From positions 1 to 44,843 of IMG/VR virus record IMGVR_UViG_3300002835_000349: a DNA stretch of 44,843 nt. One strand, written 5' to 3'. Of the stretch, positions 11,701 to 42,108 are shown piece after piece. Below the pieces are notes generated by a model. That model saw only the letters and a program-made list of their open reading frames with translations, made no database searches and had not been told where the DNA came from. This stretch comes from a virus. Numbering within the stretch: the stretch's first letter is position 1; each line of letters opens with the position of its first letter. Made by a program: the position numbers and the translations under genes.

Positions 11701-14700
11701 AACTGAGGGTTATGTGGAAAGAGGTTCCCCAAATGTTTTGAATAGTACAACGTCAATGTTGAATACTCCATTTTTTGTAAATGCAATACAATATGGAGTA
11801 GAAAACCAAAAAAATTCAATTCAAGCGCCTTACAAACAGGCCGCATTTTTATTTTTGAATTCTTTACCTTTAGCAACATTAAAAGAACGGTACAAAACAC
11901 TGAACTCGGCAAATCCTCTAGATTATATCTTTGCAAGTATGAAAAAACTTGGGGCGGTACATAGACTTCCTTATGTTTGGATTTTAAAATATGGTTCGAT
12001 TTGGCATCGATACAAAGAATTTGTCAATACTGGCCAAGACATTCTGGGACCTATTTGGTCAAACTATGACTACATTAATAACTATGACCCGGTAAATGGT
12101 GATACAGGTAAAAGTTATGTTTTAAATGGTGTGGGTACAATTACATTACAAGAGCAAGAATTGGATGTTAGTTCACAATATGATGAACTACAAATAGGTT
12201 TTTATCCCAAAACAATTAATGATTTTAATTATTTTTTAAACGGTTCCGATTTATGGACAAACTATTCTGATAGCGAAATAAATCAATCAATAGCACAAGG
12301 TTTTAAAATTCAAAACTTGTCTCAATCCAATATCTTTACATCAACGGTAGATACAACAGGTTTAGATAGGATAATAAATATTAACACTTACAGTTGTTTG
12401 GTTCCAGACACCATTGAAGCGAGTGACCCTAATCAAACAGTTTGCAACAATCCGCCTTCTACACCACAAACTAACTATTATGTTTTACCTTCATTTGGTA
12501 CTACAGAAAACGAAATGAGAGAAGCTCTATTTAATAGCGCAGGAACTTTGACTGGTGAATTGTTTAACAACCCAGCAATATTCAACGGTTCTGTAAGAAC
12601 TTTTTGGAAAATGCCTAACTATGGTTATTTGGATATAAATAATATAGAAAGACCTGATTATGATGCCTATTTAAATTTAATTCCAAGAGCGGGCGCAGTT
12701 GCACCTTTCAAATTAATTTTACCCGCAAACTCCGTTTCAGTAGTCGATAACTATTCCAAAATAGATGATTTACTTTCAACTTTCGAAAAGAAAGTTTTAG
12801 ATTTATTTGAAAGAGAATTTTTGAAATTTTCACAATCAATCTTAAATTTTGACCCCCAGGTTGGAGATGATGATTTTATAATAGACAATTCAAGAGCTGA
12901 AAGTAGAACACAGAATATTCAAAACAATACGAATAACAATTCCTATAGAAATTTCCAACTCCTATTCCGAGAGTTGATGAGCGTGCCGTTGCCTTCAACA
13001 TTTGCGACACAAGAAGATTTATTTAAACAAGTAATTGAAGGGCAATTTTCTAAGTCAATTAGTGAAATTCAAAATTTAATGAATTATGACGTTGCTTTGA
13101 GATTAGGTAATCCAACGCAATACAAAAGAAGAGAAACTGATTCATATTTAAGATACGTTTTGGGGACCGGTAATGTAATCGACCCAATACCTTTCGGGCC
13201 TTACATTCCAAACACTTTACCTACGCAAGGGGGTTCTATAACCCTTTTGGAATCTGAACTAAATAATTTGGATGCTTGGAGGGCATTAAGAACAAATGTA
13301 GGGTTTTCCACAATACCAGAACTTACTTATAGCAACAGTGGTTCATACATTACTGATTTCTTCATTGATAATAACATTGCTTTTACACAACAAAATGTGG
13401 AGTTTTTGGCTCCTGTAATAAAAATGTATGCAACCCAAAAACTCGAAGATTCGGAAATAACAAACTTTTTATTTGCAAATTCTTTACAGAATTATTTAGC
13501 TTTGACAAATGATGTGCAAAACACCTGTTTAAACAATACATTAACTATTGTTAGGAAAGATTTACCAAATATTACCGAACTTCCAGAAAAAACAATCCAA
13601 AGTCAATTTGATTCAAAACAAAGTAAAGTTGAATTGTATGAAATGTTTAAAGCGTTAAATGATAAATGGATTTCTGGTTCTGATTTTACAAATCAAACTT
13701 TATTTGAGGACATTTTATTTTTAGACCGAGCTTCACGAAATATTGGAGACAAGATAATTTTAGACATATTCAACTTACAAAGGTTAGTCAATCCAGAAAG
13801 TTTGAATTATAATATGAGTGTTTTTGTTTTAATAAGTGGTATTTTAACAGAAAACCATTTTTCTGTGATGCCAATGCCTGCTTATGTCAATTTTTACAAC
13901 GTTCAACAAGTTTCTGCTTCAGCCCAACCTAACATAGAGCCAGGTGCTTCATTTGCTAACAGTATGTGGGGAACATTTTTAAATGTTGACTACAGAAATT
14001 CCGGTCCGAAACTAGTTTGTTTTTATTCTGAAAGACCCTCAACTTATCTAGATTTAAGAGGTGAAGCTAAAAATTATTTATTTAGAAGTGATGCTTTTGA
14101 CTTACGTGAAGAAACTTTAAATCCATTAATTGAAGACCAAACTAACAAACAAGATTGGTCCGTGTCTAACAGGGTTGTAGGTTTCAACGTTGATATTGGG
14201 ATAAGAAATCAAAATGTGTTCTATTCTTTCAGTGTTACGCAGGATACTGGTAAAGCCACTTCCGAATCTATCCAACAGATAAATTTGATGGCTGCTAGCG
14301 CTTCAGGAAGAAACACTTCTACTCAAAACGTATCTTTGTATAACATTTATAAAAACATGAGTTATCAATGTGAGGTGATTTCTTTTGGTAATGCTTTAAT
14401 TCAGCCTACCATGTATTTCAATTTAAGACATGTACCATTGTTCAATGGTTCGTATATGATTACAGAGGTTCAACACACCATTTCCCCAGGTACATTTCAA
14501 ACAAAATTTAACGGAATACGTCAAAGTGTTTTTACATTGCCGTATTTGGAAGGATATCTGCAAAGCATCAATAAGAATTTAGTCACAAAACTCCTTGCAG
14601 CTAGTAAACAATCTAGAGACATTTCTAGAGGTACTACAACAACTACAACCCAAGGAAATAATGCCAATCTATCGACAGATACACAAACCAGTGTTGCCAC

Positions 14701-15328
14701 ACAAAATTCTTGTGTATCCAAAGTATTAGAAGAACCTTATCTAAATACATTAGGTTATGACTCTATTGCTGGTCAAACTACATCAATTAATAGTACTGGA
14801 TTTCTTTCTTTCTTAAATCAATCAACAGACGATGAAAATATTAAATTTATAATATTTGTTCTATCCTTCGCATCAACCGGGGTCAATAATAGATTTGAGT
14901 CAGTAAATAACAACTATGGAAAAATTACTTTGAATTATGATTATGGTGCCACGGCGGATTTGTATTTTACTAGAAACTATGTTTGTAGAACAATGAAAAC
15001 ACTGAATACAACAGATGTTTCAATGCCTTTTGCTGTGTTCAATAATGTTTTAAGTTATATTAATTTTGTAAGGGACCGAGTAACCAATAGTATTGGTGAA
15101 ATTAGAAGGAAAAGTATCGAAACATACTTTTTACAAAATTGGCCATACCCAAGAGGAACCTCTCAGACAACAAATTCACAATTAAAAACAAATTTGACTA
15201 ATGCGGTAATATTAGCAAAACAACTTGGTTTAAATACAGATATTACTGTACTCACACCTATATCTACACCAACTCCCCTACCGAATAATCAAAACTTGAT
15301 TAATACTGTGACGCCAACTTGTACCTAA
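8756..15328 (+). CDS. Giant baseplate hub protein, possibly with C-terminal muralytic domain
   Basis: A 2190-aa protein, the longest in the window. Residues about 1-270 resemble a tube/hub domain (ELEDVQGKALFESGDQSPYA, PPFYLTVKGWYGQA, then a YQVSLTFFGYKYNILNEL stretch). Around residues 1880-1945 the pattern IQPTMYFNLRHVPLFNGSYM followed by ITEVQHTISPGTFQT resembles the last tube-like domain of gp27/gpD-type hub proteins. A Thr-rich linker (about 1958-1985) leads to a final domain with NNRFESVNNNYGKI, a Cys pair and FAVFNNVLSYINFV, a layout that reminds me of glucosaminidase/muramidase domains; this last call is weak. T4 splits these jobs between gp27 and the lysozyme-bearing gp5. The middle 1500 residues are unassigned. 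Start ATG overlaps the preceding gene. Confidence 0.6.
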   Translation: MADSIYGENSGNIYVEADYSNIILVDPNKTTRIGPGGKAIIEDRVVDHENLVMYANLEASVLPRTKLAIGGSPQDNLRTISIASINFLKPNDDEFLSTGYYDDLTGLNSNQGKARTQRFESVVSNNQEGTKFYKQFTATDNRGRVIDTGLLGITSIIIETSLSFIPKVTIELEDVQGKALFESGDQSPYAAFFNLPYPPFYLTVKGWYGQAIRYQLNLQKFTARFNTFSGNYQVSLTFFGYKYNILNELSIGHLIATPHMYSKTFNITQSDISLQNSVVVNQTLQEGNLIGDSTISDSETSIETVSEKGYQKIKELYAEYKQKGLIPIDFPELTVAEMAYKLQHLEQDILNEFKNKADLQPLTDATTYGKYLKDYFEKIRGQQNSWYIKYINPNPFILKNGTVVFAFKTELDPQQREQALTELRAEILSFNNRLNENRTFGAVRGEKNFKIDNSITINSIVTSIDPSQLDFSLTLRQQLGVLNPTSGQTNTFINQILKQQFNITVEITPEGIKEVKKPFFVFDGTGRFDNLLKVMQSDLDNKVSSIETEISTRLAEQIASTSGLGFVPTVRNVMAVIFASTEAFIRLMDEVHTKAWEVRTDPIRKNVIFDNSTTVLNSDNVRNVQYGANASDAARNSEEPVYPWPQVFVENAITPTTSTTNNFTPTKGRYELAYPGDPSIVSKTKGYLYDKWPEVEFVEEYLRGVAQKFQPPVAQPPKANDGQITSVLNINAIEFPYVNFAYLNKEEVKYFYEIYERSLIYSRYSGFVRAVNSPLETGITELIANVESNNIVSSLGISSPYLILKLKNFPVSAGNYITFLQGISNDGTGRDWNNFVRDYYVTTYLRDEIENSASILPMESLSTSIQTQNFSLPQLQYLKQFLDTTNTNIPQITDTYPFTDELWNATYLNGFTFTGDQNRVFNTTRTYKLFEPKNLITNFTDLNNKTQIRPVTTFSYLEVTTPNPAGDIEDFYIGRSASELLPTEGYVERGSPNVLNSTTSMLNTPFFVNAIQYGVENQKNSIQAPYKQAAFLFLNSLPLATLKERYKTLNSANPLDYIFASMKKLGAVHRLPYVWILKYGSIWHRYKEFVNTGQDILGPIWSNYDYINNYDPVNGDTGKSYVLNGVGTITLQEQELDVSSQYDELQIGFYPKTINDFNYFLNGSDLWTNYSDSEINQSIAQGFKIQNLSQSNIFTSTVDTTGLDRIININTYSCLVPDTIEASDPNQTVCNNPPSTPQTNYYVLPSFGTTENEMREALFNSAGTLTGELFNNPAIFNGSVRTFWKMPNYGYLDINNIERPDYDAYLNLIPRAGAVAPFKLILPANSVSVVDNYSKIDDLLSTFEKKVLDLFEREFLKFSQSILNFDPQVGDDDFIIDNSRAESRTQNIQNNTNNNSYRNFQLLFRELMSVPLPSTFATQEDLFKQVIEGQFSKSISEIQNLMNYDVALRLGNPTQYKRRETDSYLRYVLGTGNVIDPIPFGPYIPNTLPTQGGSITLLESELNNLDAWRALRTNVGFSTIPELTYSNSGSYITDFFIDNNIAFTQQNVEFLAPVIKMYATQKLEDSEITNFLFANSLQNYLALTNDVQNTCLNNTLTIVRKDLPNITELPEKTIQSQFDSKQSKVELYEMFKALNDKWISGSDFTNQTLFEDILFLDRASRNIGDKIILDIFNLQRLVNPESLNYNMSVFVLISGILTENHFSVMPMPAYVNFYNVQQVSASAQPNIEPGASFANSMWGTFLNVDYRNSGPKLVCFYSERPSTYLDLRGEAKNYLFRSDAFDLREETLNPLIEDQTNKQDWSVSNRVVGFNVDIGIRNQNVFYSFSVTQDTGKATSESIQQINLMAASASGRNTSTQNVSLYNIYKNMSYQCEVISFGNALIQPTMYFNLRHVPLFNGSYMITEVQHTISPGTFQTKFNGIRQSVFTLPYLEGYLQSINKNLVTKLLAASKQSRDISRGTTTTTTQGNNANLSTDTQTSVATQNSCVSKVLEEPYLNTLGYDSIAGQTTSINSTGFLSFLNQSTDDENIKFIIFVLSFASTGVNNRFESVNNNYGKITLNYDYGATADLYFTRNYVCRTMKTLNTTDVSMPFAVFNNVLSYINFVRDRVTNSIGEIRRKSIETYFLQNWPYPRGTSQTTNSQLKTNLTNAVILAKQLGLNTDITVLTPISTPTPLPNNQNLINTVTPTCT

Positions 15329-24609: not shown

Positions 24610-25080
24610 ATGGCTGAAGGTGTCACATATGGTTTAGCATTTCCATTTGAAAATTCCAGTAGGGGTGATTTTCTTTTATTAACTGAAACTCAGTTTGCTC
24701 AAATTCGAAGTGATTTAATTCATTTATTACTTACCAGAAAAGGTTCTAGATATTACTTGCCAACTTTTGGAACTAGATTATATGAATTTTTATTTGAACC
24801 TTTTGACGGGTTAACTTTTGATGCGATTGAAGCAGATATTAGAGACTCCGTACAACAATTTATGCCTAATCTTTTAATAAATAATATAACCATCGAACCC
24901 GCAGACCCCTCTGAAGAAGTACCGTTGGCTAGAGGTGAAAGTATTCCTGGTCAGGCAAAAGACAATGTCTTTAGAGTGCCTGGTAAAGGCACGTCAGAAT
25001 ACACCGCAAAAGTGAGAATTGACTATGCTGTAGATAATAACACTTTTGCCCAAAGTGATTTTGTCATTTTGAATATTTAA
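24610..25080 (+). CDS. 25: Baseplate wedge protein gp25-like
   Basis: A 156-aa protein of the gp25/gpW family, which anchors the first sheath layer and the wedge core in contractile tails. The family core is clear: LLLTRKGSRYYLPTFGTRLYEFLFE (about residues 38-62, with the characteristic Arg/Gly and YEFLFEP) followed by an IRDSVQQFMPNLLINNITIEP helix-strand. T4 gp25 is 132 aa; the extra length is in the C-terminal part (about residues 98-130). The gene lies 5 nt upstream of gp6, the same adjacency as W-J in P2-type and 25-6 in many T4-type tails. Confidence 0.88.
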   Translation: MAEGVTYGLAFPFENSSRGDFLLLTETQFAQIRSDLIHLLLTRKGSRYYLPTFGTRLYEFLFEPFDGLTFDAIEADIRDSVQQFMPNLLINNITIEPADPSEEVPLARGESIPGQAKDNVFRVPGKGTSEYTAKVRIDYAVDNNTFAQSDFVILNI

Positions 25081-25085
25081 AATAT

Positions 25086-26924
25086 ATGGCTAACAATAGA
25101 ATATCTTATACTGCTAGGGATTACGAAAGTATTAGAATTGAATTACAAAATTATGTCAGAACTTATTATCCTGAATTAATCCAGGATTTTAATGATGCCT
25201 CGGTGTTTTCAGTTTTTCTTGATTTGAATGCTGCAATTGCAGACAACCTTCATTATAATATTGACAGAAGTATACAAGAAACTGTTCTACAATATGCTCA
25301 GCAAAGGTCTTCAATTTATAATATAGCCCGAACCTACGGTCTAAAAGTACCCGGACAACGCCCTTCAGTAGCATTGGTTGATTATTCAATTACTGTCCCT
25401 GCGTTTGGAGACAAAGAAGATGAAAGATATTTGGGTATTTTGACTAGGGGTTCCCAAGTTTTCGGTGCGGGTATTGCATTTGAAAATCAAAACGATGTTG
25501 ATTTTGCATCGCCATATAATAGCTCGGGATTTCCAAATAGAACAAAAATACCAAACTTTGATGCTAATGGTAATTTAATTAACTATACAATTACTAAAAG
25601 AGAATTGGTAGTGAATGGAATTACTAAAGTTTTCAAAAGGGTAGTTAATCCTAGTGATGTAAGACCTTTTTTTGATTTGTTTTTACCTGAAAAAAATGTT
25701 CTTGGGATTACTAGTGTTTTGTTGAAATCGGGTACTAATTATACAAACGTTCCTACAGCATCAGAATTCTTGGGCTTAGAAAACAGATGGCTCGAGGTTG
25801 ATGCGTTAGCTGAAGACCGCGTTTTTATAGAGGACCCAACTAAAGTATCTGACCAACCAGGTATTAAAGTTGGTAGATACATTCAAACAAACAGTCGTTT
25901 TATAACTGAATTTACCCCGGAGGGTTTTTTAAAAATGACATTTGGTGGAGGAACAACATCTGCACAAGACCAACTCAATGCTTTTACCAATTTAGGTGTT
26001 CCTGTGAATCTACAATCTTTGAGTAATAATTTTTCTTTAGGGTCAACATTATCTCCAAATTCAACATTATTCATACAATACAGAATAGGTGGGGGACTTG
26101 CAACTAACATTGGAACCAATGTTATTAATCAGATTGGAACAGTTTCATTCTTTGTAAATGGCCCATCCCAAACAATTAACTCTGCCGTAATCAACTCTTT
26201 GAGATGCAACAACCCAACAGCGGCTATTGGCGGTTCAAACGTTCCCACAACAGAAGAAGTAAGAAATTATGTTAGCTTCAATTTTTCAGCACAGAAAAGA
26301 GCTGTCACCGTTAACGACTATGAATCTCTTTTAAGAAACATGCCAAGTCAATTTGGTGCTCCAGCAAAAGTTTCTATTACTGAAAATAACAATAAAATTC
26401 TTATAAACTTGTTGTCGTTTGACACCTCTGGTAAACTTACAAATATTGTATCCAATACGTTAAAACAAAATGTTGCTAACTACCTTTCAAATTATCGCAT
26501 GATAAATGACTACATTCAAGTAACCACAGCAAACGTAATTGACTTAGGTGTAGATGTTTCAGTAGTACTTGATGCAACCCAAAACTCTGGACAAGTTGTT
26601 TCAGAGATTGTTAATAGAATTTCTGAATACTTTAATCCAATCGTAAGGGAATTAGGTCAAAACGTTTATCTGTCACAATTAAGAAGCATAGTTCAAAATC
26701 AAACAGGTGTTATTACAGTTGCCGATATTACAATCTCCAACAAAGTAGGTGGTCAATATTCAGGGGCAGAAACCTCAATGACATATTCTGACCCTGAATT
26801 GAAAATAATTCAACCAGTAGACGACACTATATTCGCCGAACCAAACCAGGTTTATCAAGTTAGATATCCACAAAAAGACATTGTGGTAAGAGTTAAGAAC
26901 TTACAAAACGTATCATTTTCTTAA
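25086..26924 (+). CDS. 6: Baseplate wedge protein gp6-like (gpJ family)
   Basis: A 612-aa protein comparable with T4 gp6 (660 aa), whose dimers form the inner iris of the baseplate. The N-terminal signature is present: ISYTARDYESIRIELQNYV, then FNDASVFSVFLDLNAAIADNLHYNIDR and AQQRSSIYNIARTYG (about residues 5-88). The C-terminal third has the gp6/gpJ-type pattern QKRAVTVNDYESLLRNMP (about 398-415) and a segment ending in QNQTGVITVADI. Expected partner is the gpI/gp7-like protein encoded at 36607, with which it would form the wedge core heterotrimer. No cysteine-rich or enzymatic region is seen. Confidence 0.87.
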   Translation: MANNRISYTARDYESIRIELQNYVRTYYPELIQDFNDASVFSVFLDLNAAIADNLHYNIDRSIQETVLQYAQQRSSIYNIARTYGLKVPGQRPSVALVDYSITVPAFGDKEDERYLGILTRGSQVFGAGIAFENQNDVDFASPYNSSGFPNRTKIPNFDANGNLINYTITKRELVVNGITKVFKRVVNPSDVRPFFDLFLPEKNVLGITSVLLKSGTNYTNVPTASEFLGLENRWLEVDALAEDRVFIEDPTKVSDQPGIKVGRYIQTNSRFITEFTPEGFLKMTFGGGTTSAQDQLNAFTNLGVPVNLQSLSNNFSLGSTLSPNSTLFIQYRIGGGLATNIGTNVINQIGTVSFFVNGPSQTINSAVINSLRCNNPTAAIGGSNVPTTEEVRNYVSFNFSAQKRAVTVNDYESLLRNMPSQFGAPAKVSITENNNKILINLLSFDTSGKLTNIVSNTLKQNVANYLSNYRMINDYIQVTTANVIDLGVDVSVVLDATQNSGQVVSEIVNRISEYFNPIVRELGQNVYLSQLRSIVQNQTGVITVADITISNKVGGQYSGAETSMTYSDPELKIIQPVDDTIFAEPNQVYQVRYPQKDIVVRVKNLQNVSFS

Positions 26925-27014: not shown

Positions 27015-30000
27015 ATGGGACAGTCCTTTAGAATTAACACAAACATTGGTATAGACAAAAATATATCATTTCAATTAGACCAAGATTTTGAATTCTTAGA
27101 AATTCTTTCCCTTCAAATTTTTCAAAATGATGTTTACCCTCGTGATTGTGCTGATTACGGGGTGGTGGTTGGTAGAGTTGTGGCAAATGGGGGGTTTGGA
27201 ATCCCGAATGCAAAAATTTCAATATTCGTACCAATAACTGAAATTGACTCTTTGAATGATAGGATTGTTCAGTTATACCCATACACTCAGCCAAACGATA
27301 AAAATGATGATGGGTATAGGTTTAATCTACTCCCTTACGTACAATCATATACAAACCATGCCGCAACAGGGACATTTCCATCTAGGGAAGATGTTCTCAA
27401 AGACCCAGTTGTTGTTGAAATTTATGACAAGTATTACAAATTTACTGTAAAAACAAATGATAGCGGTGACTTCATGATACTTGGAGTCCCAGTAGGACAA
27501 CAAACTATTGTAATGGATTTAGATTTGAGTGATATTGGTGAATTCTCACTTACGCCTCAAGATTTAATTAGAACTGGTTTAGCAACAGAATCTCAAGTTG
27601 CTGGAGATAGATTTCGTAGTTCACCAGACCTAGATACTTTGCCGCAAATAATACATGTCGAAAAAATTTTTGAAGTAGCCCCTTTCTGGGGCGAACCAAC
27701 AATCTGTCAATCTTCAATCAGTAGGATTGATTTTGATTTGAGAGAAGAAGCTAACGTTGAAATTCAACCAACAGCTGTTTTCATGGGTTCAATTTATTCT
27801 ACTGGTGATGAATTCAAAATAGCAGCACCTCTTGGTTTTGGTCAAGACCCACCTTCTATACTCACCGCCGGTTGTAAACCAAAGGATAACATGGGCAACC
27901 TTTGTGACTTAACTACTGGTCCAGGCCAGTTACTTGCCATAAGACAAACCATAGTTCAGGATGACCAAGGAAGGCCCATACTTGAGGAATATCGTCTTGA
28001 AAACTCAGGTAATGTTATAGATGAAAATGGAACTTGGTTGATTGAAATACCCATGAATTTGGATTATGTGACAACCAATGAAGAAGGTCAGAGAATATTC
28101 TCGAGAGACCCTCGAGTTGGTATTCCTACAAAATCCAAATATCGCTTCAAAGTAAAATGGCAACAATCACCTAATGACACCGACCCGGTAAAAAGGGGAT
28201 ACTATCTTTTACCAAACGTAAGAGAGTGGGGGTGGAGAGTTTCCTCAATTGACCCGTATTATGACAACTCATTCGACACAAGTCGTGAATTAGCCAGTTC
28301 TTATTATTTTGGATTGAATTGGACTGGATACACAGACGCTGAATTTACTTCTGTTTCTAACAAAAAATTGCAAGCGGCAATAAACTGTGAGGATACTTTT
28401 TATGAATTTGAATACAATAAAGTATACACCCCAGCTGGTTTAATTGACCAATACAAAAGAGGATTTAGTAGAGGTAGGTTCATTGGAGTTAAAGACATAG
28501 GTAATAACGATTGTGAAACAACGGTTAATAAGTTTCCAGTAAATGAAGGGTTTAAAAATTTTAGTTCACAATTTTTTCTATTTGCAATTTTGATGCAATT
28601 TATTCAGTTAATATTTCCAATTGTTTTAATTGCGTACCATGTCCTTGGTTTGATATTAAGAATTCTTTCTATCGGTTCGGTTAAGTTAAAACCGATTAGA
28701 TTACCAATGATTACATATCCTGAGTGTCAAAATTGTGAATGCGCTACTCCAGATTTAGATACAAGTGAAAATGGGATTCCAAATTCTATTTTAACACCTC
28801 TTACACAAAGTGTTCGTTACTTTGAAGCTTTGGAAAATTATCCACTATTACCACCAGAAAAAATTGGGGATGACGGTGTTTTAAGTAGCGCTAACGTTTC
28901 GGCACTTTCTTTGATTTTTTCTGAAGCTTTAGGTACAAGAACAGCTGAAGTAAAAAAACTAGCAGAAGACAACTCCACACAATCACAAACATCAAGATTA
29001 CCGGACACTCTTAATTCTATTAACATCGCAAAAAAGATTTTTGCAATCTCTTCGGATATTCCGATGGCGCAAAGAATTAATATTTTTAACACAAGGAAAA
29101 AATATTTTGATGGTGTTAACAAAATTAGTGTAAGTTTTGACAATCCAAATAACACAACTAGTCAACACTTTGACAACACGTTAACAATTTTGACTCAATC
29201 AGCTCTGCCGGCAGGAACATTGTTGACTTTTGTTGACCTGGCAAAAACGGAGGATAAGAATTTTTTATACTCGGGAAACACTTTCAATGGGATTAGTGGT
29301 AATACACTTTTACCAGGTCCCGGGCAAATCAATGTGACTTATGCAACGAGTCAAACAACTAATACAAGCCAAAGTTATTTTCTTAATTCGGGTTCCTCAA
29401 TAGAAAATTATAAATTTCCTGCAGACCTCGAATATTACCAGGTTTTGACAGCCATTACTTTGAGTGATGCGTTTGTTCTTGCTAGTGGAGGGGGAACACC
29501 GATTTGTAACACGTATTTCATTGAAACAGATTTTGACCCAAATGCGCAGCTTTCGGTCGATGTTACTTACATTGACTGTTCTGGAAATAATCAGTTGTTA
29601 AATGTAACGTCGACGTATGATAATACAATCAACCAATACCTCCCTGGGTCTCAAACAGTGTGCGCTTCTACAACACCAATCATCACACAAGGAAGCGGGA
29701 CAGTAACACTACAAGGGCCATGTTCGCCACCTAATCCTTTTGGTGGAATACTTGAATTGTTAAACTCTTCAACAAAAATTGATTGGTCTATTTTAAATTT
29801 TAATTTAGGTGGTTGGAATGATAGACCTTCATTAAATTTAAAAACGAGAGAATTCTTTGATGGGTTTGATAACCAATACTTGACAATTTTACAAAGAGGT
29901 GTTGACCCTTATTCTCCGTTATACACAAACAAATATGGTATTGGTAAAATTTTGGGTTTACCAAATGAAAACTCTTTAACAATAACAACTCAAACTAGGT

Positions 30001-32087
30001 TGAATATTCCCATTCAAGCACTTCCTGCTGGAGGAATTTCAGTACAAAATCACAACTCCCAGAATAATATTTTTTATCAATCTTATTTCTTCGAGCCAAC
30101 CAATGAGTTTTCTGCATTTACAACCAGCAATGTAGGGTATTATAGTGCAATAGATGCAAATAGAAATTTTTCTATTTATAAAAACCCTTCTGTAGGCCCT
30201 CCCCTCCCTAATCCACTATTTTTTCAGGGTCCTATGCCTTGGGTTTCATCATTATTAAATACACCTATAAATAACGCAGTCGAAATTGTAACAAGTATAA
30301 ACGCAAATGACGCTTTCGATTCTTTACCTTCACCAGCAAAATACGATGCGGTCGAAGATTTGTCGGGTGCTGATTTTTATTATATTGCGGTAAGTGAAAA
30401 TCCCGGAAAAGCTTTTAGCACTTATTTTAGTTTTTCTCTTTTACCAACAGTGTCATCAACCAATACTAAATTAAACATTTCCAATAAAAGTAAAAATGTT
30501 CTAAGAACCGACCGTTTACCTTCGTCAGATTTTCTTGATGGTTTCGCTTGGGATTCTGTAGTTCCGGTTTTACAAATGAATCGCGGCTTTACGGTTTACA
30601 CTATCGATACACCAGATGGAAATATTGTGACAACAACCTACGGCTCAGGGGCAGATATTACTGGAAATGACATCGAAGATTTGCCGGATTATTTGGACGT
30701 AACTGCAACTTTTTCTTGTGAATCAATGGTCAGTTTGGATTGTTACGATAATGTTGGGGATACAATAGTTGTTGATACTAATTGCGCTGAAAAGGATAGA
30801 ATTGAACGGGGTTGTTTCGTTTTTGCAAGAAAATTCATAACAGGGTTACCTCTTGATTTGGTTGCATTTAATGAGTGGGGATTACGCTACAGATTTTTCT
30901 ATGCGTTATGTCAAGGTGTGGTATCACAAACTTTTACAAACAATTGGGTAAATGGTAGTTTGTATACATTTCCTTTTGCTGTAAGAACACTTTACGGTGG
31001 AAACAATCAAATTTCTAGAAGGGTTTTTTGTAAAGATTTGATTTATTACAATGAAGATAGTAATAATTTTTATTATAGAAGTAGCCCTTATAGTCCGACT
31101 ACAAACAATTTTATTGGTAAAGATAATAATCCTTTAACTGGTACAATAAATGATTATGCCTTAAAAACACCAGCAACAATAATGAATCTGGGTCCTAAAA
31201 CAGCGGTATTTAAGGAATTGACACTTAACCCTTCTGATTATGGTTTTGTAATGGACGCTCTTACACCCACTAGTTATGGTGACACAAGTGACTTGTTGAA
31301 TTTATTTGTTATTTCAAGGATTACAAATGCGGGTTATTTGCGGTTGTTACTTAATTATTATCCAGGAATTGTTGGGACAAATTTGGCGATTAATACCTTG
31401 TTTTCGCGAAGACAACTTAGATTAGATGGTGACATAACTCAAATGCTTTCAATTAACTCAGAATTTGGTGTTGTTAAATTCAATTCACAAAATTATACTA
31501 ATGTTGCAAACAATCCGGACAACCCAATTTTTATTTCTAGAAATCCAAATGGATTTTCTGTGATGGGAATATTTTATTCTTCAACAACAGAAGATTTACA
31601 ATACAAAGATTATTTATCACCTGGTAGAATCAATTTCAGACCAACACCAACATCAAACGCCTTCCCTTACTATTATGATTTAAAATCTCAAAGAGTGCCT
31701 TTCTACCGTTGGAAAAGGCAAGACAATGCAAGATTTTTTAATAATATAAGTCTACCATTTAGTTTAGGTTCAGAAGTTGGAATTTTTGGTACGCAAAGTA
31801 ACAACTGGGCTACCGATAATAATGATATTTTCAATAAAAATTACCAAAATCTTGATAGAACAGACCCCGCTCAGCCATCTTACTTTTTAGGCTCTAATTC
31901 CCAACTTAATGATGTGTATGCCAGAGGATATATTTTTAACGTGGATGGTAATGGAAATGTCTCAGCTACTGCAGGAAATTATCCTAGTGTATTTGCAATA
32001 GGTGCTCCAAATCATTTTTATTTTGGGTTAATCAATGGTGCTACTTCGCTGGATAGATTCAAATCAAAATACTTAGCAGATGAATAA
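27015..32087 (+). CDS. Giant baseplate-associated protein with carrier-like beta domain and membrane-like segment
   Basis: A 1690-aa protein located between gp6-like and gp7-like genes. Residues about 45-180 contain a carboxypeptidase-regulatory-like or similar beta-sandwich: GRVVANGGFGIPNAKISIFV, later YYKFTVKTNDSGDFMILGVPVGQ. Residues 520-553 form a long uncharged hydrophobic stretch (begins FFLFAILMQF, ends VLGLILRILSI) with one proline in the middle, followed by a Cys cluster at 571, 574 and 576. Such a segment is unusual in a soluble virion protein. The remainder is Asn/Ser/Thr-rich beta sequence. No enzymatic motif. It overlaps the next gene by 8 nt. Role is inferred from context: a peripheral baseplate protein, perhaps acting at the cell surface. 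T4 gp10-like or gp7-like roles are possible. Confidence 0.55.
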   Translation: MGQSFRINTNIGIDKNISFQLDQDFEFLEILSLQIFQNDVYPRDCADYGVVVGRVVANGGFGIPNAKISIFVPITEIDSLNDRIVQLYPYTQPNDKNDDGYRFNLLPYVQSYTNHAATGTFPSREDVLKDPVVVEIYDKYYKFTVKTNDSGDFMILGVPVGQQTIVMDLDLSDIGEFSLTPQDLIRTGLATESQVAGDRFRSSPDLDTLPQIIHVEKIFEVAPFWGEPTICQSSISRIDFDLREEANVEIQPTAVFMGSIYSTGDEFKIAAPLGFGQDPPSILTAGCKPKDNMGNLCDLTTGPGQLLAIRQTIVQDDQGRPILEEYRLENSGNVIDENGTWLIEIPMNLDYVTTNEEGQRIFSRDPRVGIPTKSKYRFKVKWQQSPNDTDPVKRGYYLLPNVREWGWRVSSIDPYYDNSFDTSRELASSYYFGLNWTGYTDAEFTSVSNKKLQAAINCEDTFYEFEYNKVYTPAGLIDQYKRGFSRGRFIGVKDIGNNDCETTVNKFPVNEGFKNFSSQFFLFAILMQFIQLIFPIVLIAYHVLGLILRILSIGSVKLKPIRLPMITYPECQNCECATPDLDTSENGIPNSILTPLTQSVRYFEALENYPLLPPEKIGDDGVLSSANVSALSLIFSEALGTRTAEVKKLAEDNSTQSQTSRLPDTLNSINIAKKIFAISSDIPMAQRINIFNTRKKYFDGVNKISVSFDNPNNTTSQHFDNTLTILTQSALPAGTLLTFVDLAKTEDKNFLYSGNTFNGISGNTLLPGPGQINVTYATSQTTNTSQSYFLNSGSSIENYKFPADLEYYQVLTAITLSDAFVLASGGGTPICNTYFIETDFDPNAQLSVDVTYIDCSGNNQLLNVTSTYDNTINQYLPGSQTVCASTTPIITQGSGTVTLQGPCSPPNPFGGILELLNSSTKIDWSILNFNLGGWNDRPSLNLKTREFFDGFDNQYLTILQRGVDPYSPLYTNKYGIGKILGLPNENSLTITTQTRLNIPIQALPAGGISVQNHNSQNNIFYQSYFFEPTNEFSAFTTSNVGYYSAIDANRNFSIYKNPSVGPPLPNPLFFQGPMPWVSSLLNTPINNAVEIVTSINANDAFDSLPSPAKYDAVEDLSGADFYYIAVSENPGKAFSTYFSFSLLPTVSSTNTKLNISNKSKNVLRTDRLPSSDFLDGFAWDSVVPVLQMNRGFTVYTIDTPDGNIVTTTYGSGADITGNDIEDLPDYLDVTATFSCESMVSLDCYDNVGDTIVVDTNCAEKDRIERGCFVFARKFITGLPLDLVAFNEWGLRYRFFYALCQGVVSQTFTNNWVNGSLYTFPFAVRTLYGGNNQISRRVFCKDLIYYNEDSNNFYYRSSPYSPTTNNFIGKDNNPLTGTINDYALKTPATIMNLGPKTAVFKELTLNPSDYGFVMDALTPTSYGDTSDLLNLFVISRITNAGYLRLLLNYYPGIVGTNLAINTLFSRRQLRLDGDITQMLSINSEFGVVKFNSQNYTNVANNPDNPIFISRNPNGFSVMGIFYSSTTEDLQYKDYLSPGRINFRPTPTSNAFPYYYDLKSQRVPFYRWKRQDNARFFNNISLPFSLGSEVGIFGTQSNNWATDNNDIFNKNYQNLDRTDPAQPSYFLGSNSQLNDVYARGYIFNVDGNGNVSATAGNYPSVFAIGAPNHFYFGLINGATSLDRFKSKYLADE

Positions 32088-35698: not shown

Positions 35699-36607
35699 AT
35701 GGCTATCGGCACATATGGAACCCTAAGACCGGCGGATGTTTCACCGGAGGATGTTGAAATCATCCTAAATTACACCCCATCTAGGGATGAAACAGAAAAT
35801 TTTATTCTCACAACTTTGGATTCTCCAAGTGTATTAAGACCTTATTTTAATAACGCAAATACTGGTGGTAATGCAAACGTTGAGGTTTTGGGGGGTCTTT
35901 ATAATTTAACTCTACCTGCTGACGTTTTTAATCAAGTAGGGATTTACACTATGATGTTGAGACCTGCTCAGATAAGAACATCGATAACTGATTGTGGGGT
36001 GTTGTCAGCACTACCCAACGTAAAAGGAATTATAATAGACTTAAATAATGTGCCATCACAATTTAGAAACAAATTTACACCACAAGGGCTCATAGGTTTT
36101 CGTGTAGAATATTTGAATCCAGATGGCTCAAAAATACCCAACTTTTTTAGGATTGTAACTTCAAATTTTTATTGTGAACCTGTAGTTGTTAACCAAGTTA
36201 ACACCACACAAAAAGCAATCAGATACAGATATGTTGAAGGCGTTACAAATTTAATGTTTTGTACGCTATCACCATCTTCATCACCAACAAACAAACCTAA
36301 TGCAACTCCATTCATAGGACAGCCAGCACAAAATATAATAATGACAAACACATATTTTAATCCAGTTTCTATCGAAATTGACATGGTTGAATATGATGTT
36401 TCATCACTTGCTATTGCTTTATACGGTAATCAAACTAAAAGTATTGATGATGGTATCTACACAATCTATGACAGTGAAAATAACATTTACAAGCAATACA
36501 ACTTATTTGAAATTCGTGACCAGTTTAATGCACTGCTTTATGAAGTTCGACAAGACAGGGGAGCTAACATTGATTTTACTAAAAACTTCACAACAATAGT
36601 TAGTTAA
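35699..36607 (+). CDS. Putative baseplate/fibre structural protein (302 aa)
   Basis: No family recognised. The N-terminus (YGTLRPADVSPEDVEIILNY) reads as an extended arm and helix; a region around residues 60-150 is compact beta sequence with GGLYNLTLPADVF and GIIIDLNNVPSQFRN. A Ser/Pro/Asn-rich loop lies near 195-208. The last 30 residues are helical and charged. Its stop and the next gene's ATG share one base (TAATG), implying tight coupling with the gp7/gpI-like wedge protein and so a related structural role. Confidence 0.57.
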   Translation: MAIGTYGTLRPADVSPEDVEIILNYTPSRDETENFILTTLDSPSVLRPYFNNANTGGNANVEVLGGLYNLTLPADVFNQVGIYTMMLRPAQIRTSITDCGVLSALPNVKGIIIDLNNVPSQFRNKFTPQGLIGFRVEYLNPDGSKIPNFFRIVTSNFYCEPVVVNQVNTTQKAIRYRYVEGVTNLMFCTLSPSSSPTNKPNATPFIGQPAQNIIMTNTYFNPVSIEIDMVEYDVSSLAIALYGNQTKSIDDGIYTIYDSENNIYKQYNLFEIRDQFNALLYEVRQDRGANIDFTKNFTTIVS

Positions 36608-39600
36608 TGGCGATAAATAGCACGAAGTTTTTCTACCCACCAACCCCAGGTAATGGTGCTGGAACTTTTGACGACATTGTAGGATTTCAAGTTGTCGAGG
36701 GGGGCGGTTTAACATCTGCTGTTTTTGATTTTACAACATCTGTAACTGAAAAAGTTAACCGGACATTTTCAATTGGTACTTTTTCCAACCCAATATCTCT
36801 TGAGGATTTGGATGTAAATTCATTAGAGGAAAGTAGACGAATTTTACAGACGCAATTTAGAGTTTACCCTAGTTATGATGTTTCACAGGTCTTAAATTTT
36901 TCTCTTTATGGTTCTTTAGCTAAAAGATTAAGTGTATCGGTCACTCATATAATTAATTTTTTTCCGGCAGCTTTGGATGTAAGAAGACTGATGCCAGATT
37001 TTTCATCAGGTCAAACAGCAACAAACATTTCATACGACCCAATTGAGAAAGAAACAACTTTTACGGTACCAGTATTACAAGCATATAATCCATTTTTAAT
37101 CGAGTTTTCACAAAGTGCTACCACAGCCTTGATGGTTAGAGAACTTGAAGCATCCCAGTATCGAAATCTAACTCGAAGCTATTTGAATTATGTTTTGGAT
37201 TATGATGATATAAAATATCCTGTTGTTGATTTTGTACCTTCAACAAGTCAATCTTCTGGAAATTTAGTGTTTGTCGTATCTGGAGCACCTTTTGGAGTTA
37301 GTACGTCGTCAACTGTGGAAAACTTTTTAATTAGACCGAGTGATTACATAGTTGACAAAGTATTCCAAGAAAACTTCGATGAGGTTGAACAATTTCTGAT
37401 GAATCGATTGATTCGACCGGAGTACACGGCAAACTTCCAGGTGCCTCAACAAAACCAAGCGGGTCAGTTTTATACTTCCTATGTTCAAATTACCTTCCCC
37501 AAAGATGGTGACTGGAACTTGGACATCACATCTTTTAGGTTTGATGAATATCTAACCAGATTAGCCGATGTCGCAGAAGATTTGGACACTTACAAAACTA
37601 ATTTGATTTCTAGATTTTTGGTAACAGCATCAATCAAAGAGTTTGATACTATGGACCAAAAGGTGGAAAAAATTCTACAAATATATGGCAGAAGTTTTGA
37701 CCAAGTAAAGCAGTATATCGATGCGTTAGCAAACATGAATTCTGTTAACTATGTTCCGCAAAACGACATACCTTCTCAGTTACTTTTTAACTTATCACAA
37801 ACTCTGGGTTGGAGTAATAATTTTTCACCAATAACCGATGAAGATTTTTTAGGCAGTGTCTTTGGGAATACTAATCAAATAGAATATCCTGGTTATGCTA
37901 GGGCACAAACCCCCACTGAATTAAATTATCAGTTTTATAGAAATTTAATTCTAAACTCTGCATACCTTTTTAAATCAAAAGGAACAAGGCGTTCAATAGA
38001 ATTTTTATTAAGATTGATTGGCGCACCAGAAGCTCTTATAGAATTCAACGAAAATATTTATCTGGCTGACCAGAGAATTAGTATGAGTAAGTTCGATACT
38101 CAGTTTACGCAATTGTCTGGTGGAACTTATGTGAATGAGCAACCTGCATTGTCACCAGGAAACACATTTTCAATAAGAGGTCAAATTTTTACAGCCTTTA
38201 CAACATCTTCAACTTTTGAAACCGTTAATATAAGAAGAAATGATTATCCGGTTGATGATTTAGGATTTCCAAAAGCACCCAATCCCGCTGGTACAAATGG
38301 AGTTTTTTTCCAAGAAGGGGCAGGATGGTATGAATCCACACCAGACCACAGAAGTCCAAATCAGATTACCATTACTGGTGACGTATTCACTGGGCAAAAT
38401 GTGGATGTACAAACCCAATTACAACCATTTACCTACGGAGGAATTTATTTAGACAGATTCAATCAATTTCCCTATATGCAAGAAGGGTTTAAATTGAGAA
38501 AAATAGCTGACAACAAAAAATCATGGGTTGCCACAGATAATCGTTTACGAATTGATACTGAAGGTGGTTATGAAGCTTACTATTTTACTGACGATGAAAA
38601 ACTTGTTCTTAATGTCAAAAATATTGATTTGTTTTTAAATGTTGGACAAGGTTATGCGTATGATGTATGGGACCAGTCAAGGTTGTTTAACTATCCGATA
38701 CCCGAGTCTGGATTTACAGCAAATTTTCCATCGCCAGGGGGAATTGATGATACATTTATAGACCCCGAGCCACAGAAAAAAACTTTTTTCGAATTTTATC
38801 AAACTTTCTGGCAAAACATGATTAACACCAGAAATAGAATGTTTATTTCTGATGGCAAAACGGGGGGTTACCCAACTCTACAATCGGTGTTTTGGAAATA
38901 TCTAGAATCTGAACAAACTGTTGGTATACCAAACAACAAGTACACGTATCAAAAACTTATTGAATACGTGGATGCTATTGGCCCATATTGGATGAAACTT
39001 ATTGAACAAATGATTCCAGCAACAACACTTTGGAATACAGGTGTGAGATTGGAAAATTCTATTTTTCAAAAACAAAAATTTGTATATCGACGTCAAAGAG
39101 GTTGTCAATTAATTCCGGTAGAAGCTCAACCTTGTTTTATTATCTCCAACATATTTGATTACGATTGCAACACAGAATATGTTGATTTTTTTATTTACCC
39201 TTGGTTGAATGGTGATGTTACGGTATCTGATTTCCAAGCTATTTTGATAAATAGGGTTAATAATTATTTGATTTCAGTCGGGTCAAATGCTGGGTTTTAT
39301 AATCCTAATTCAATTAGCTCACAATGGTATTTGAATTTAACAATTGGGAATCAAACAATTATTGATGTGTTTTTTTATCAAGGTTCAGGAATTAACGATG
39401 TTCCCACGTCGTTATTATGGAGGCAAACTTTAATTGATAATCTTAACAATTTATATCAGTACGGATATACCTATACTTTGAACGGAAACTTCTTGACAAT
39501 AACAAATTTAAATTGCGTATTGGAAAATTCTTTACAAAACGTAAGTTTAAATGTTGGAATAAACATAACCTTAGATTGTCCAATAACAAGACAGGTAGAA

Positions 39601-39609
39601 CCTGCATAA
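36607..39609 (+). CDS. Baseplate wedge protein, gp7 / P2 gpI-like
   Basis: A 1000-aa protein. A helical block at about residues 350-480 contains VEKILQIYGRSFDQVKQYID, SQLLFNLSQTLGW and, after an FYRNLILNSAYLFKSKG helix, GTRRSIEFLLRLIGAPEALI; the last part is the KGTRxxIexLLxLxG pattern of P2 tail protein I. In P2 and T4 tails gpI and gp7 pair with gpJ/gp6 to make the wedge core. The order gp25, gp6, then this protein therefore preserves W-J-I, interrupted by five extra genes. Residues 1-340 and 500-1000 are beta-rich additions; T4 gp7 is also about 1030 aa. The similarity to gpI is judged by eye. Confidence 0.6.
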   Translation: MAINSTKFFYPPTPGNGAGTFDDIVGFQVVEGGGLTSAVFDFTTSVTEKVNRTFSIGTFSNPISLEDLDVNSLEESRRILQTQFRVYPSYDVSQVLNFSLYGSLAKRLSVSVTHIINFFPAALDVRRLMPDFSSGQTATNISYDPIEKETTFTVPVLQAYNPFLIEFSQSATTALMVRELEASQYRNLTRSYLNYVLDYDDIKYPVVDFVPSTSQSSGNLVFVVSGAPFGVSTSSTVENFLIRPSDYIVDKVFQENFDEVEQFLMNRLIRPEYTANFQVPQQNQAGQFYTSYVQITFPKDGDWNLDITSFRFDEYLTRLADVAEDLDTYKTNLISRFLVTASIKEFDTMDQKVEKILQIYGRSFDQVKQYIDALANMNSVNYVPQNDIPSQLLFNLSQTLGWSNNFSPITDEDFLGSVFGNTNQIEYPGYARAQTPTELNYQFYRNLILNSAYLFKSKGTRRSIEFLLRLIGAPEALIEFNENIYLADQRISMSKFDTQFTQLSGGTYVNEQPALSPGNTFSIRGQIFTAFTTSSTFETVNIRRNDYPVDDLGFPKAPNPAGTNGVFFQEGAGWYESTPDHRSPNQITITGDVFTGQNVDVQTQLQPFTYGGIYLDRFNQFPYMQEGFKLRKIADNKKSWVATDNRLRIDTEGGYEAYYFTDDEKLVLNVKNIDLFLNVGQGYAYDVWDQSRLFNYPIPESGFTANFPSPGGIDDTFIDPEPQKKTFFEFYQTFWQNMINTRNRMFISDGKTGGYPTLQSVFWKYLESEQTVGIPNNKYTYQKLIEYVDAIGPYWMKLIEQMIPATTLWNTGVRLENSIFQKQKFVYRRQRGCQLIPVEAQPCFIISNIFDYDCNTEYVDFFIYPWLNGDVTVSDFQAILINRVNNYLISVGSNAGFYNPNSISSQWYLNLTIGNQTIIDVFFYQGSGINDVPTSLLWRQTLIDNLNNLYQYGYTYTLNGNFLTITNLNCVLENSLQNVSLNVGINITLDCPITRQVEPA

Positions 39610-39624
39610 TAATAAGAAAGAAAC

Positions 39625-42108
39625 ATGGCGTGTCGTAACCTAGGACCAATTGATTTTAGTTTTATAAGTTTAAGTGAAGTTTGTACCTCACCCAGTTTAG
39701 AGATTTATTCTATTGATGAGGTCACTCCTTCTTCACCCGCAATTGGTGATATTATTTACAATGGTGCTGGTTGCAGTGTATCCGCTGAAGCAAACGATGG
39801 ATGGTATATTCTGGATAGTTTAAATCCCCAAGTCGTTTATGTGGTTGGTTCTGGTGGTGGTGTTATAACATCAATAGAAACCTGCTCCACACCCACACCA
39901 ACCCCGACAAATACTTCAACCCCTACAAACACACCTACCCCAACCGTGACCCCCACCCCAACGGGAACTTTAAGTACAACAACACCATTTGGTAATGGTG
40001 TTATTTTTGATTACACCCTTGATATTATTGGTGCTTGTGAAACGGGTTTTGGTAGTGCCGAAATCATCCCAACTGGAGGGGTAGGACCGTATACTTTTGA
40101 TTGGTATAATCCAGAACTTGGCACTGGTCCTATAAAAACAAATTTAGCACCTGGAACTTATTTTGTTCGAGCTAACGATTCAGCCAGCCCTGTCAATGCG
40201 CAATTTTTTATAAACGTTACTATATCAGAATGTTTATGTGTTTCAATATTAAATGTAAATTCCACTACTTGTGGTTCGGACAATGGTTCTGTGACAGGAA
40301 CTTCTTCTTCTGTATTTGCAATAACTGATTACCAGGTTTTTACCAATAATGATATATTGGTACAATCTCAAGCAAGTAATACTGGTACCGTAGAATTTAA
40401 TAATCTTTCTGCGGGAACTTATTATTTATTTGGGTCTGATGGGGGGGGTGCAACTGGTCGTAGTGCTAATTTTATTGTTGAGCAATCCACTCCGCTTTCT
40501 TATGGGTTGTATGTTGTTCCTGATGCTTCGTGTAATGGTTTACCTTCAGGTAAAATTTACGTGACAGGAATTACGGGCACCCCCCCTTTTACATACTTGT
40601 GGAATAACAGCTCTACACAGAGTAGCATTACGGGATTGACCCCTGGTGTTTATTCTGTGCAAGTTACGGATTCGCTTGGGTGTCAATTAACGCAAAATGC
40701 GCTTATCACTGAGGTGGAGCCGGTTGCATTAGGGACAATAACTTCTACATCTCCGACTTGTTTTGAAGCTGATGGTAGCGTTACAATAACTGTTATTGAT
40801 GGTACACCCCCCTTTTATTATTCTGCCAGCACAGGTTATTCTGAGATAAGTTATCTAAGAACATTAACCTTATCCAATTTAAGTAATGGAAATTATAGTA
40901 TAAGTGTAACTGACGCTGGATTATGTAAATTTTTGGCAACGACCTCGATTGCTAGTCCTGGTGGAATTTCTTCTGTTAATGTTTCTACTACTAATTCAAC
41001 TTGTTCGGCGAATGATGGGTCTATTAACGTTGGTGTTATTGGGGGTGTAGCTCCTTATGTTTATACATTAATTTATCCTGGTGGGGATATGAATTCTGTC
41101 AACAGTAACACAACTACACAAATTTTTTCGAATTTGGAATCGGGTACATATTCAATTTTTGTGGAAGATACCACAGGTTGCGTATACACCACGGAAGTGA
41201 CTTTGATTGCTGAGGATAAATTTGAAATTTCCATTTCTTTGCAACCAGCTACTTGTGGCTTGAATGATGGTGTGTTGCAAGTATCCATAAGTGAGGAAGC
41301 TGTTTTGCCTTTAACCTATTCTATTGACGGGACAAACAACATTGTGGATTCTAATTTATATGGGGTTACGTTTTCAAACGTAAGTCCTGGGCAACACATA
41401 TTGACCGTTGTTGATTCTGAAGGATGTTCCATTTTCACTCCGTTCACAATATCGAGTTCGGTACCAGTAGACTTTTCTTTGTACTCGACTTCTTGTGGTT
41501 CTGGAAACGAGGGCATAATAACAGCATTTATAACCCAAGGCACGGCACCCTTTAATTTTAATTGGAGTGCAAACGTTGCTGGTAACCCCCAAGAAATTAC
41601 TGTTGAGGGTCTTTCCGGTGGCACATATTCGTTAATTGTGCAAGATGCGAATGGTTGTTCATTATCAAGAGAAACAATTATAGAATGTGCCGCCAAGTGC
41701 GTAACCTTTCAGACCTATTCAATGGGTTCAGAGGTTTTTAACATTTTATCTCCAACAAAACATGGTATTAATCAAATACTTGTTGAAGGGTTTAATGATT
41801 TAACTGCTGGTAACAGTGAATGTATTTTAATATCAGCAACATATACGGCTCAAATTGAAATTCAACCCCAAAATACTTTCTTAAACAACACTTTTTATAC
41901 TGGTAATTCCTTGGTTGATGTGCCAAGTGATAATCTGTGGTTTACAACCATAACAAACTTATTGCAAAGTATCCAAGGTGTTACTGCTGTTAATATCAAC
42001 CCTCTGACAAATCAAATTTCAATTTCTGCTAATCCTGGTAGTTCCATCATTGGTCAAGAACTGAGCGTCAAACTAATTATAGTATACGACATCATTTGCT
42101 TGACATGA
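39625..42108 (+). CDS. Tail fibre/adhesin built of SprB-like repeats
   Basis: An 827-aa protein. After about 85 N-terminal residues comes a Thr-Pro-rich flexible linker (about 88-115) and then about seven units of roughly 80 aa. Each has the plan C-x-x-(N)DG-x-I/V, a central TPPFTYLW-like strand, L/G-x-Y-x-V-x-V-x-D and a closing GC; the clearest is GTPPFTYLWNNSSTQSS followed by GLTPGVYSVQVTDSLGC. This matches the SprB repeat known from flavobacterial gliding adhesins. Paired cysteines at repeat ends could bridge. The C-terminal 130 residues form another domain. Expected role: receptor-binding fibre. No signal peptide. An unusual G8 tract at 40441-40448 is inside the coding frame. Confidence 0.78.
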   Translation: MACRNLGPIDFSFISLSEVCTSPSLEIYSIDEVTPSSPAIGDIIYNGAGCSVSAEANDGWYILDSLNPQVVYVVGSGGGVITSIETCSTPTPTPTNTSTPTNTPTPTVTPTPTGTLSTTTPFGNGVIFDYTLDIIGACETGFGSAEIIPTGGVGPYTFDWYNPELGTGPIKTNLAPGTYFVRANDSASPVNAQFFINVTISECLCVSILNVNSTTCGSDNGSVTGTSSSVFAITDYQVFTNNDILVQSQASNTGTVEFNNLSAGTYYLFGSDGGGATGRSANFIVEQSTPLSYGLYVVPDASCNGLPSGKIYVTGITGTPPFTYLWNNSSTQSSITGLTPGVYSVQVTDSLGCQLTQNALITEVEPVALGTITSTSPTCFEADGSVTITVIDGTPPFYYSASTGYSEISYLRTLTLSNLSNGNYSISVTDAGLCKFLATTSIASPGGISSVNVSTTNSTCSANDGSINVGVIGGVAPYVYTLIYPGGDMNSVNSNTTTQIFSNLESGTYSIFVEDTTGCVYTTEVTLIAEDKFEISISLQPATCGLNDGVLQVSISEEAVLPLTYSIDGTNNIVDSNLYGVTFSNVSPGQHILTVVDSEGCSIFTPFTISSSVPVDFSLYSTSCGSGNEGIITAFITQGTAPFNFNWSANVAGNPQEITVEGLSGGTYSLIVQDANGCSLSRETIIECAAKCVTFQTYSMGSEVFNILSPTKHGINQILVEGFNDLTAGNSECILISATYTAQIEIQPQNTFLNNTFYTGNSLVDVPSDNLWFTTITNLLQSIQGVTAVNINPLTNQISISANPGSSIIGQELSVKLIIVYDIICLT

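Follow-up and report, generated by a model that had tools for sequence, protein, structure and literature searches.

Two features bring the adhesin SprB to the cell surface, a signal peptide and a T9SS end at the C terminus. In F. johnsoniae, sections of PMC12618676 describe a C-terminal domain (CTD) that decides the destination of SprB and is alone sufficient to send other substrates to the gliding machinery. The closest precedent for the phage protein analyzed here is the tail-associated BACON array of crAssphage, which parts of de Jonge 2019 (PMC6949934) describe as eight domains in cluster 1 that form clades by position. Both systems are tandem arrays of a Bacteroidetes beta-domain encoded near tail genes, with a fixed number of units and positional clades; however, the BACON array belongs to gut crAss-like phages, whereas the SprB-repeat protein is built from another domain family in another phage group, and its C-terminal domain shared with a neighboring protein and its heads at both ends have no counterpart in those parts of the crAssphage account. 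The SprB-repeat protein would represent the second instance, after BACON in crAssphage, in which a surface domain from Bacteroidota became established as a tail array. None of the open-access papers searched describes phage proteins with SprB repeats, and one such protein, A0A6J5LD72, is already deposited under that name. In the portions concerned, PMC7468147 and PMC7345892 offer nothing on this subject beyond references and general text, PMC13370021 treats Ig-like phage adhesins and PMC7073777 has polymorphic toxins as its subject.

The window, meaning the whole 44,843-nucleotide stretch of viral DNA analyzed here, is a 44.8 kb record classed as linear and encodes one protein with SprB repeats (Table 1). 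A sequence-only reading had assigned SprB repeats to this open reading frame and proposed a PF13573 profile search as a check; the Pfam model matches the 827-aa product at E 8.9e-20 and 70.5 bits, against a cut-off of 28, and confirms the assignment. A six-frame search of the record with PF13573 returned five separate matches, all in this open reading frame and two of them above the per-match cut-off, while the model matched 0 of 14 control genomes searched in six frames and all 11 of the full-length relatives. A repeat profile built from the relatives identifies exactly seven repeats in the window protein (residues 136–190, 209–293, 296–367, 372–448, 453–534, 537–616 and 617–690), and by alignment these measure 81, 87, 78, 80, 84, 80 and 74 aa from first to last, so that the earlier count of about seven units of roughly 80 aa was accurate. 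The description of the units as Cys-bounded holds fully for repeats 3–7, which have two Cys residues 50–59 aa apart, and fits repeats 1 and 2 less well; the interval first given, 39887–41700, extends from the linker through repeat 7 and omits two parts of importance, the N-terminal head and the C-terminal domain. BACON is not among the ten Pfam families matching the window protein at E 0.1, and the Pfam match to Por_Secre_tail is below cut-off and internal (residues 245–273).

Table 1. Positions of the SprB-repeat gene, its parts and its tail-module neighbors in the window
Feature	Position	Strand	Basis or remark
Tail tube gene	at 154		
Hub gene	at 710		
gp25-type baseplate wedge protein	24610..25080	+	profile match
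gp6-type baseplate wedge protein	25086..26924	+	profile match
Upstream ~1000-aa baseplate-module protein	36607..39609	+	last ~140 residues are the C-domain also found in the SprB protein
SprB-repeat tail protein, 827 aa	39625..42108	+	head, Thr-Pro linker, seven repeats, C-domain; PF13573 and relatives' profile
N-terminal head, residues 1-87	39625..39885	+	unrelated heads or none in relatives
Thr-Pro-rich linker, residues 88-125	39886..39999	+	
SprB repeat 1, residues 126-206	40000..40242	+	alignment, profile
SprB repeat 2, residues 207-293	40243..40503	+	farthest from host repeats
SprB repeat 3, residues 294-371	40504..40737	+	closest to host repeats
SprB repeat 4, residues 372-451	40738..40977	+	alignment, profile
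SprB repeat 5, residues 452-535	40978..41229	+	alignment, profile
SprB repeat 6, residues 536-615	41230..41469	+	alignment, relatives' profile
SprB repeat 7, residues 616-689	41470..41691	+	lowest dN/dS
C-terminal alpha/beta domain, residues 690-827	41692..42105	+	homologous to end of upstream protein; proposed anchor
Small TTG-started ORF, listed at 104 aa	42096..42410	+	usually next after the SprB gene in relatives
Next protein, 335 aa	42539..43546	+	two globular parts with Thr-Pro linker between; position variable in relatives

A first scan of viral contigs recovered 18 loci, and in 17 of these (L006–L022) the SprB gene follows, within each locus's reach, genes for proteins of ~280, ~360, ~302 and ~1000 aa; the eighteenth, L023, encodes a host-type protein. 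A profile-based scan of viral contigs identified 456 relatives of the SprB protein. Among the best 80 of these 456 are 60 distinct proteins, from which three truncated ones (L011, L012 and L022) were dropped and with L023 excluded from the phage family as host-type, and all 57 complete cores have seven repeats and near-constant lengths. Because these sets had been picked by similarity to a seven-repeat query, we added a test anchored on the neighboring gene. Two scans with the upstream protein gave 160 loci among the matches listed (out of at least 549 and at least 510), which represent the better-matching part; dropping 38 loci in which the next gene was cut or absent at a contig end left 122 complete loci and 92 distinct proteins. 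Exactly seven repeats and the C-domain are present in 91 of these 92 distinct complete next-gene proteins (pooled, among the matches listed), including one, L310, with two C-domain matches. In 121 of the 122 loci with a complete next gene among the matches listed, the SprB gene immediately follows the upstream gene; in the exception, L273, the next gene lacks repeats and a seven-repeat protein is encoded one gene further on; the intervening L273 gene is perhaps a split-off head. Where next genes were judged singly, seven repeats were found in 70 of 71 and eight in one (among the matches listed). The count of seven persists in relatives down to 32% identity, and A0A6J5LD72 (BFVD; 714 aa, uncultured Caudovirales phage, annotated 'SprB repeat'), the best viral Foldseek match at 32% identity and E 1.9e-61 against the whole window model, is a deposited member of the seven-repeat family. 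Host SprB-repeat open reading frames, by comparison, carry 1 to 38 repeats (41 complete, including L023 and L026, among the matches listed); since the number of units is constant in the phage proteins, unlike in host arrays, length itself appears to be selected. Among named phages the only relative came from LR756502, whose protein is host-type, and a contig scan of bacterial genomes with two short patterns gave 62 pattern matches and no full-length relative.

Length variation in the phage family is confined to terminal extensions: the array plus C-domain spans 689–732 aa and whole proteins range from about 700 to 2083 aa (among the matches listed). Extensions longer than 40 aa occur at the N terminus in 33 of 91 proteins and at the C terminus in 23, with 17 proteins extended at both ends and 52 at neither, and the longest reach 1004 aa N-terminally and 641 aa C-terminally (all among the matches listed). 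A Thr-Pro pattern is present in 7 of the 33 N-terminal and 14 of the 23 C-terminal extensions among the matches listed, so that such linkers are frequent and not universal. Heads reappear among relatives in differing combinations, and the C-terminal head of the L077 protein exists as a separate gene in L051 (9267), 90% identical over 285 aa. The conserved arm with its exchangeable heads offers a handle for locating receptor-binding parts in metagenomic phages. A second mosaic protein, with lone SprB-like repeats between Thr-Pro linkers, is encoded in the same phage as L016 (L349, 2–2065). The protein that follows the small open reading frame in the window, also with a Thr-Pro-rich linker, has no family match in Pfam and PHROG searches.

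Gene order places the SprB gene in the baseplate module: the gp25- and gp6-type wedge genes come first, then a series of large genes up to the one for the ~1000-aa protein, which directly precedes the SprB gene. Together with the PF13573 match, this context supports the earlier proposal of a phage tail-module protein made of SprB repeats. A C-domain profile matches the ends of upstream proteins (best 7e-8), hhalign aligns the C-domain with the upstream end at probability 94.5 and E 8e-8, and the C-domains in the predicted models of the SprB protein and the upstream protein have the same order of strands and helices; the C-domain and the C-terminal end of the upstream protein are homologous. 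The single-chain model of the SprB protein contains seven Ig-like domains in a string and an alpha/beta domain (pLDDT 83.7, pTM 0.38), and this low pTM means that distances between the beads cannot be taken from the model. The best solved Foldseek matches of the array are parts of GhpA (E 2.7e-20 to 2e-19), a surface protein of the Aureispira grappling hook (PDB 9flp, 9flw and 9fly; name taken from the PDB titles). VIA aligns the two at Z 12.3 over 506 residues with an rmsd of 52, so that the likeness holds bead by bead only; GhpA is a bacterial protein and is absent from the sequence matches of the array in a PDB profile search at E 1. Neither the upstream protein nor its relatives in two cultured phages matched a Pfam or PHROG family at E 0.01; its model has an overall pLDDT of 52.8, a PDB profile search gave chance-level matches only and Foldseek gave weak matches and nothing at E 1e-3. 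A likeness of the upstream C-domain to T7 nozzle and phage tail sheath domains (VIA Z 4.5–6.0, rmsd 2.9–4.5 over 76–91 residues) was rejected as below the tool's meaningful level, and a KSKGTRRSIEFLLRLIG stretch in the upstream protein may resemble P2 gpI-type proteins, a likeness that no search confirmed.

The reading we favor, with moderate confidence, is that the SprB protein is an Ig-like arm of fixed length, anchored at the baseplate and fitted with exchangeable heads. Seven Ig-like SprB repeats would form a structural tail protein of fixed length, and the alpha/beta C-domain, common to the adjacent baseplate-module protein, would anchor it at the baseplate. The N terminus would be distal, with the arm directed outward and bearing interchangeable heads that contact the receptor and often sit on Thr-Pro linkers. 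The repeats would derive from, or share descent with, Bacteroidota cell-surface proteins, would have been in place before the phage group diversified, and since then would have served as a spacer and not as a secreted adhesin. The repeats and their constant number, the synteny, the C-domain common to both proteins, purifying selection and the scarcity of host secretion features are observed; that the protein is part of the virion, that the C-domain anchors it, that the arm points outward and that specificity resides in the heads and not in the repeats is inferred. With 456 relatives in one viral-contig scan, the arm is a candidate core adsorption component of abundant, largely uncultured Bacteroidota phages.

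Repeat divergence is consistent with such a history. Repeats at the same position are 49% identical across phages (735 pairs), and repeats at different positions within one phage protein average 26% (315 pairs), in agreement with the strong divergence among repeats noted from the sequence alone. Host repeats share 53% identity with others in their own protein (478 pairs) and 46% with those of other proteins. Between phage and host repeats, mean identity is 24–39% by position, and the best single pair reaches 57%; this comparison used 15 of the 60 phage proteins and, for each host protein, at most its four best repeats, and it is biased towards repeat 3, by similarity to which the host repeats were collected. 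Bacterial relatives of repeat 3 carry Bacteroidota or subgroup record titles, with one Candidatus Kapaibacterium (best 80 of at least 568), which supports the suggestion that the phage protein and Bacteroidota surface proteins share an origin. A tree was built from 49 phage repeats (from 7 of the 60 proteins) and 40 randomly chosen host repeats, with many short and divergent rows; in it, positions 1, 2, 3, 4 and 7 form one clade each with bootstrap values of 99–100, although position 2 has an SH-aLRT of just 72. Positions 5 and 6 do not resolve in the free tree, and trees constraining each as a clade are more likely. These position-wise clades indicate that the seven positions predate the divergence of the phage family, and long residence, as the sequence-only reading had suggested, is borne out over recent capture. 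Forcing all 49 phage repeats into one clade is not rejected (p-AU 0.238), a value compatible with either a single or a multiple capture of the repeats.

Across 16 independent close pairs, dN/dS is 0.08–0.20 over the array, which indicates purifying selection, with nothing to suggest that the repeats are under diversifying selection. The ratio is 0.20 for repeat 1, 0.08 for repeat 7 and 0.10 for the C-domain, and the difference between repeat 1 and the combined repeat 7 and C-domain has a bootstrap interval of 0.036 to 0.189; the gradient was looked for post hoc and is uneven, with repeat 4 below repeats 5 and 6. The fall from repeat 1 to repeat 7 and the C-domain fits a distal N terminus and anchoring at the C-terminal end, an argument for polarity that is weakened by the C-terminal extensions, which imply that the C terminus is not buried.

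A different location on the particle, as a neck whisker or a head or tail decoration protein instead of a baseplate arm, is unlikely, even though the protein matches a Hoc-like head decoration family in PHROGs (phrog_2973, E 3e-9, best stretch residues 317–457) and profile searches match a solved neck whisker protein weakly (E 6e-4) and decoration proteins at E 0.012 and 0.077. Such matches probably reflect Ig-like folds in general, whereas the gene lies in the tail module constantly right behind a baseplate-module gene whose product shares its C-domain, and on the L016 contig, the one examined for this, it falls within the first 13 kb, with the head block near 105–115 kb.

Mimicry of the host adhesin, in which the arm would bind the partners of gliding adhesins or the same polysaccharides, had been raised by the sequence-only reading; it now appears quite improbable, also in a form in which the arm would bundle with SprB. 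The repeat family is common to host surface proteins, the best solved structural match is a Bacteroidota surface protein and the phages are predicted to infect Bacteroidota, all of which would suit mimicry. Host SprB proteins and the phage proteins indeed share PF13573 repeats of ~80 aa with paired Cys residues; however, host proteins mostly have a signal peptide, a T9SS end and a variable count, and phage proteins have seven repeats and almost none of these secretion features. A hydrophobic-window screen for signal peptides was positive in 2 of 92 phage against 59 of 63 host proteins, and T9SS end motifs were found in 0 of 92 phage against 40 of 58 host proteins (both among the matches listed); inspected by eye, the N terminus of the window protein has no hydrophobic signal-type stretch. 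The CTD that sets the destination of SprB in the sections of PMC12618676 cited above has no equivalent at the end of the phage protein, and the low identity to host repeats and the dN/dS values likewise argue against mimicry. Binding of polysaccharides by the repeats is neither supported nor excluded. A host-type SprB protein of 1670 aa does occur at 6231–11243 of L026 (LR756502.1, a 642-kb uncultured huge phage record); with its signal-peptide-like start, 13–14 repeats and gliding-type C-terminal end, it amounts to a secreted adhesin copied into a phage genome and differs in this from the window protein.

Still more speculative, and decidedly doubtful, is an extended role in which a host surface-adhesin repeat would have become, in the baseplate of an entire clade of large Bacteroidota myophages, a seven-unit measuring arm or universal chassis with heads at either end that also latches onto the moving adhesin layer by repeat-to-repeat contact, the phage riding the gliding machinery to its receptor; latching is suggested because the host shows the same repeat on moving adhesins. 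It is very unlikely that the protein is an assembly factor or ruler that acts in tail assembly only and is absent from the mature particle, since the fixed length of the array plus C-domain would suit a ruler but an assembly factor would hardly carry heads that turn over and reach about 1000 aa. Least probable by our estimate is a host-derived cargo or moron with no structural role, for which the host ancestry of the repeat family and the host-type secreted SprB proteins in other phage records (L026, L023) could be cited, against its presence in 91 of 92 neighbors (among the matches listed), near-invariant length, purifying selection and the lack of a signal peptide in nearly all members.

The phages that carry the baseplate arm we propose appear, from gene content, to be bS21-encoding Bacteroidota myophages. 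bS21 is encoded by 10 of 12 large contigs carrying the SprB gene, and in the one contig examined for arrangement (G008, the contig of L016) its gene has antisense orientation within a group of TerL, portal, protease and MCP genes; the window is a 44.8-kb fragment without this block. The same bS21 gene arrangement is described, in the sections concerned of Chen 2022 (PMC9723584), for phages predicted to infect Bacteroidetes, and SprB does not occur in the main text of that source. The window also encodes gp32, a DnaB-type helicase and a ribonucleotide reductase small chain, and three giant tail-module open reading frames at 3386–8440, 8756–15328 and 27015–32087 (1684, 2190 and 1690 aa) have no PHROG match at E 0.01. 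Its gp6-type protein is closest to those of Microcystis phage Mel-JY01 and Flavobacterium phage immuto at ~27%, which points to a clade without a close cultured relative in the phage collection searched. A Shine-Dalgarno-like 4-mer is found for 0 of 22 ATG-started open reading frames in the window (GTG and TTG starts left out), against a background of 8%; Flavobacterium phage immuto is similar, with 1 of 32, and a Microcystis phage differs, with 9 of 22. Together, the missing Shine-Dalgarno signal and the bS21 genes of the relatives suggest a Bacteroidota host for the window phage.
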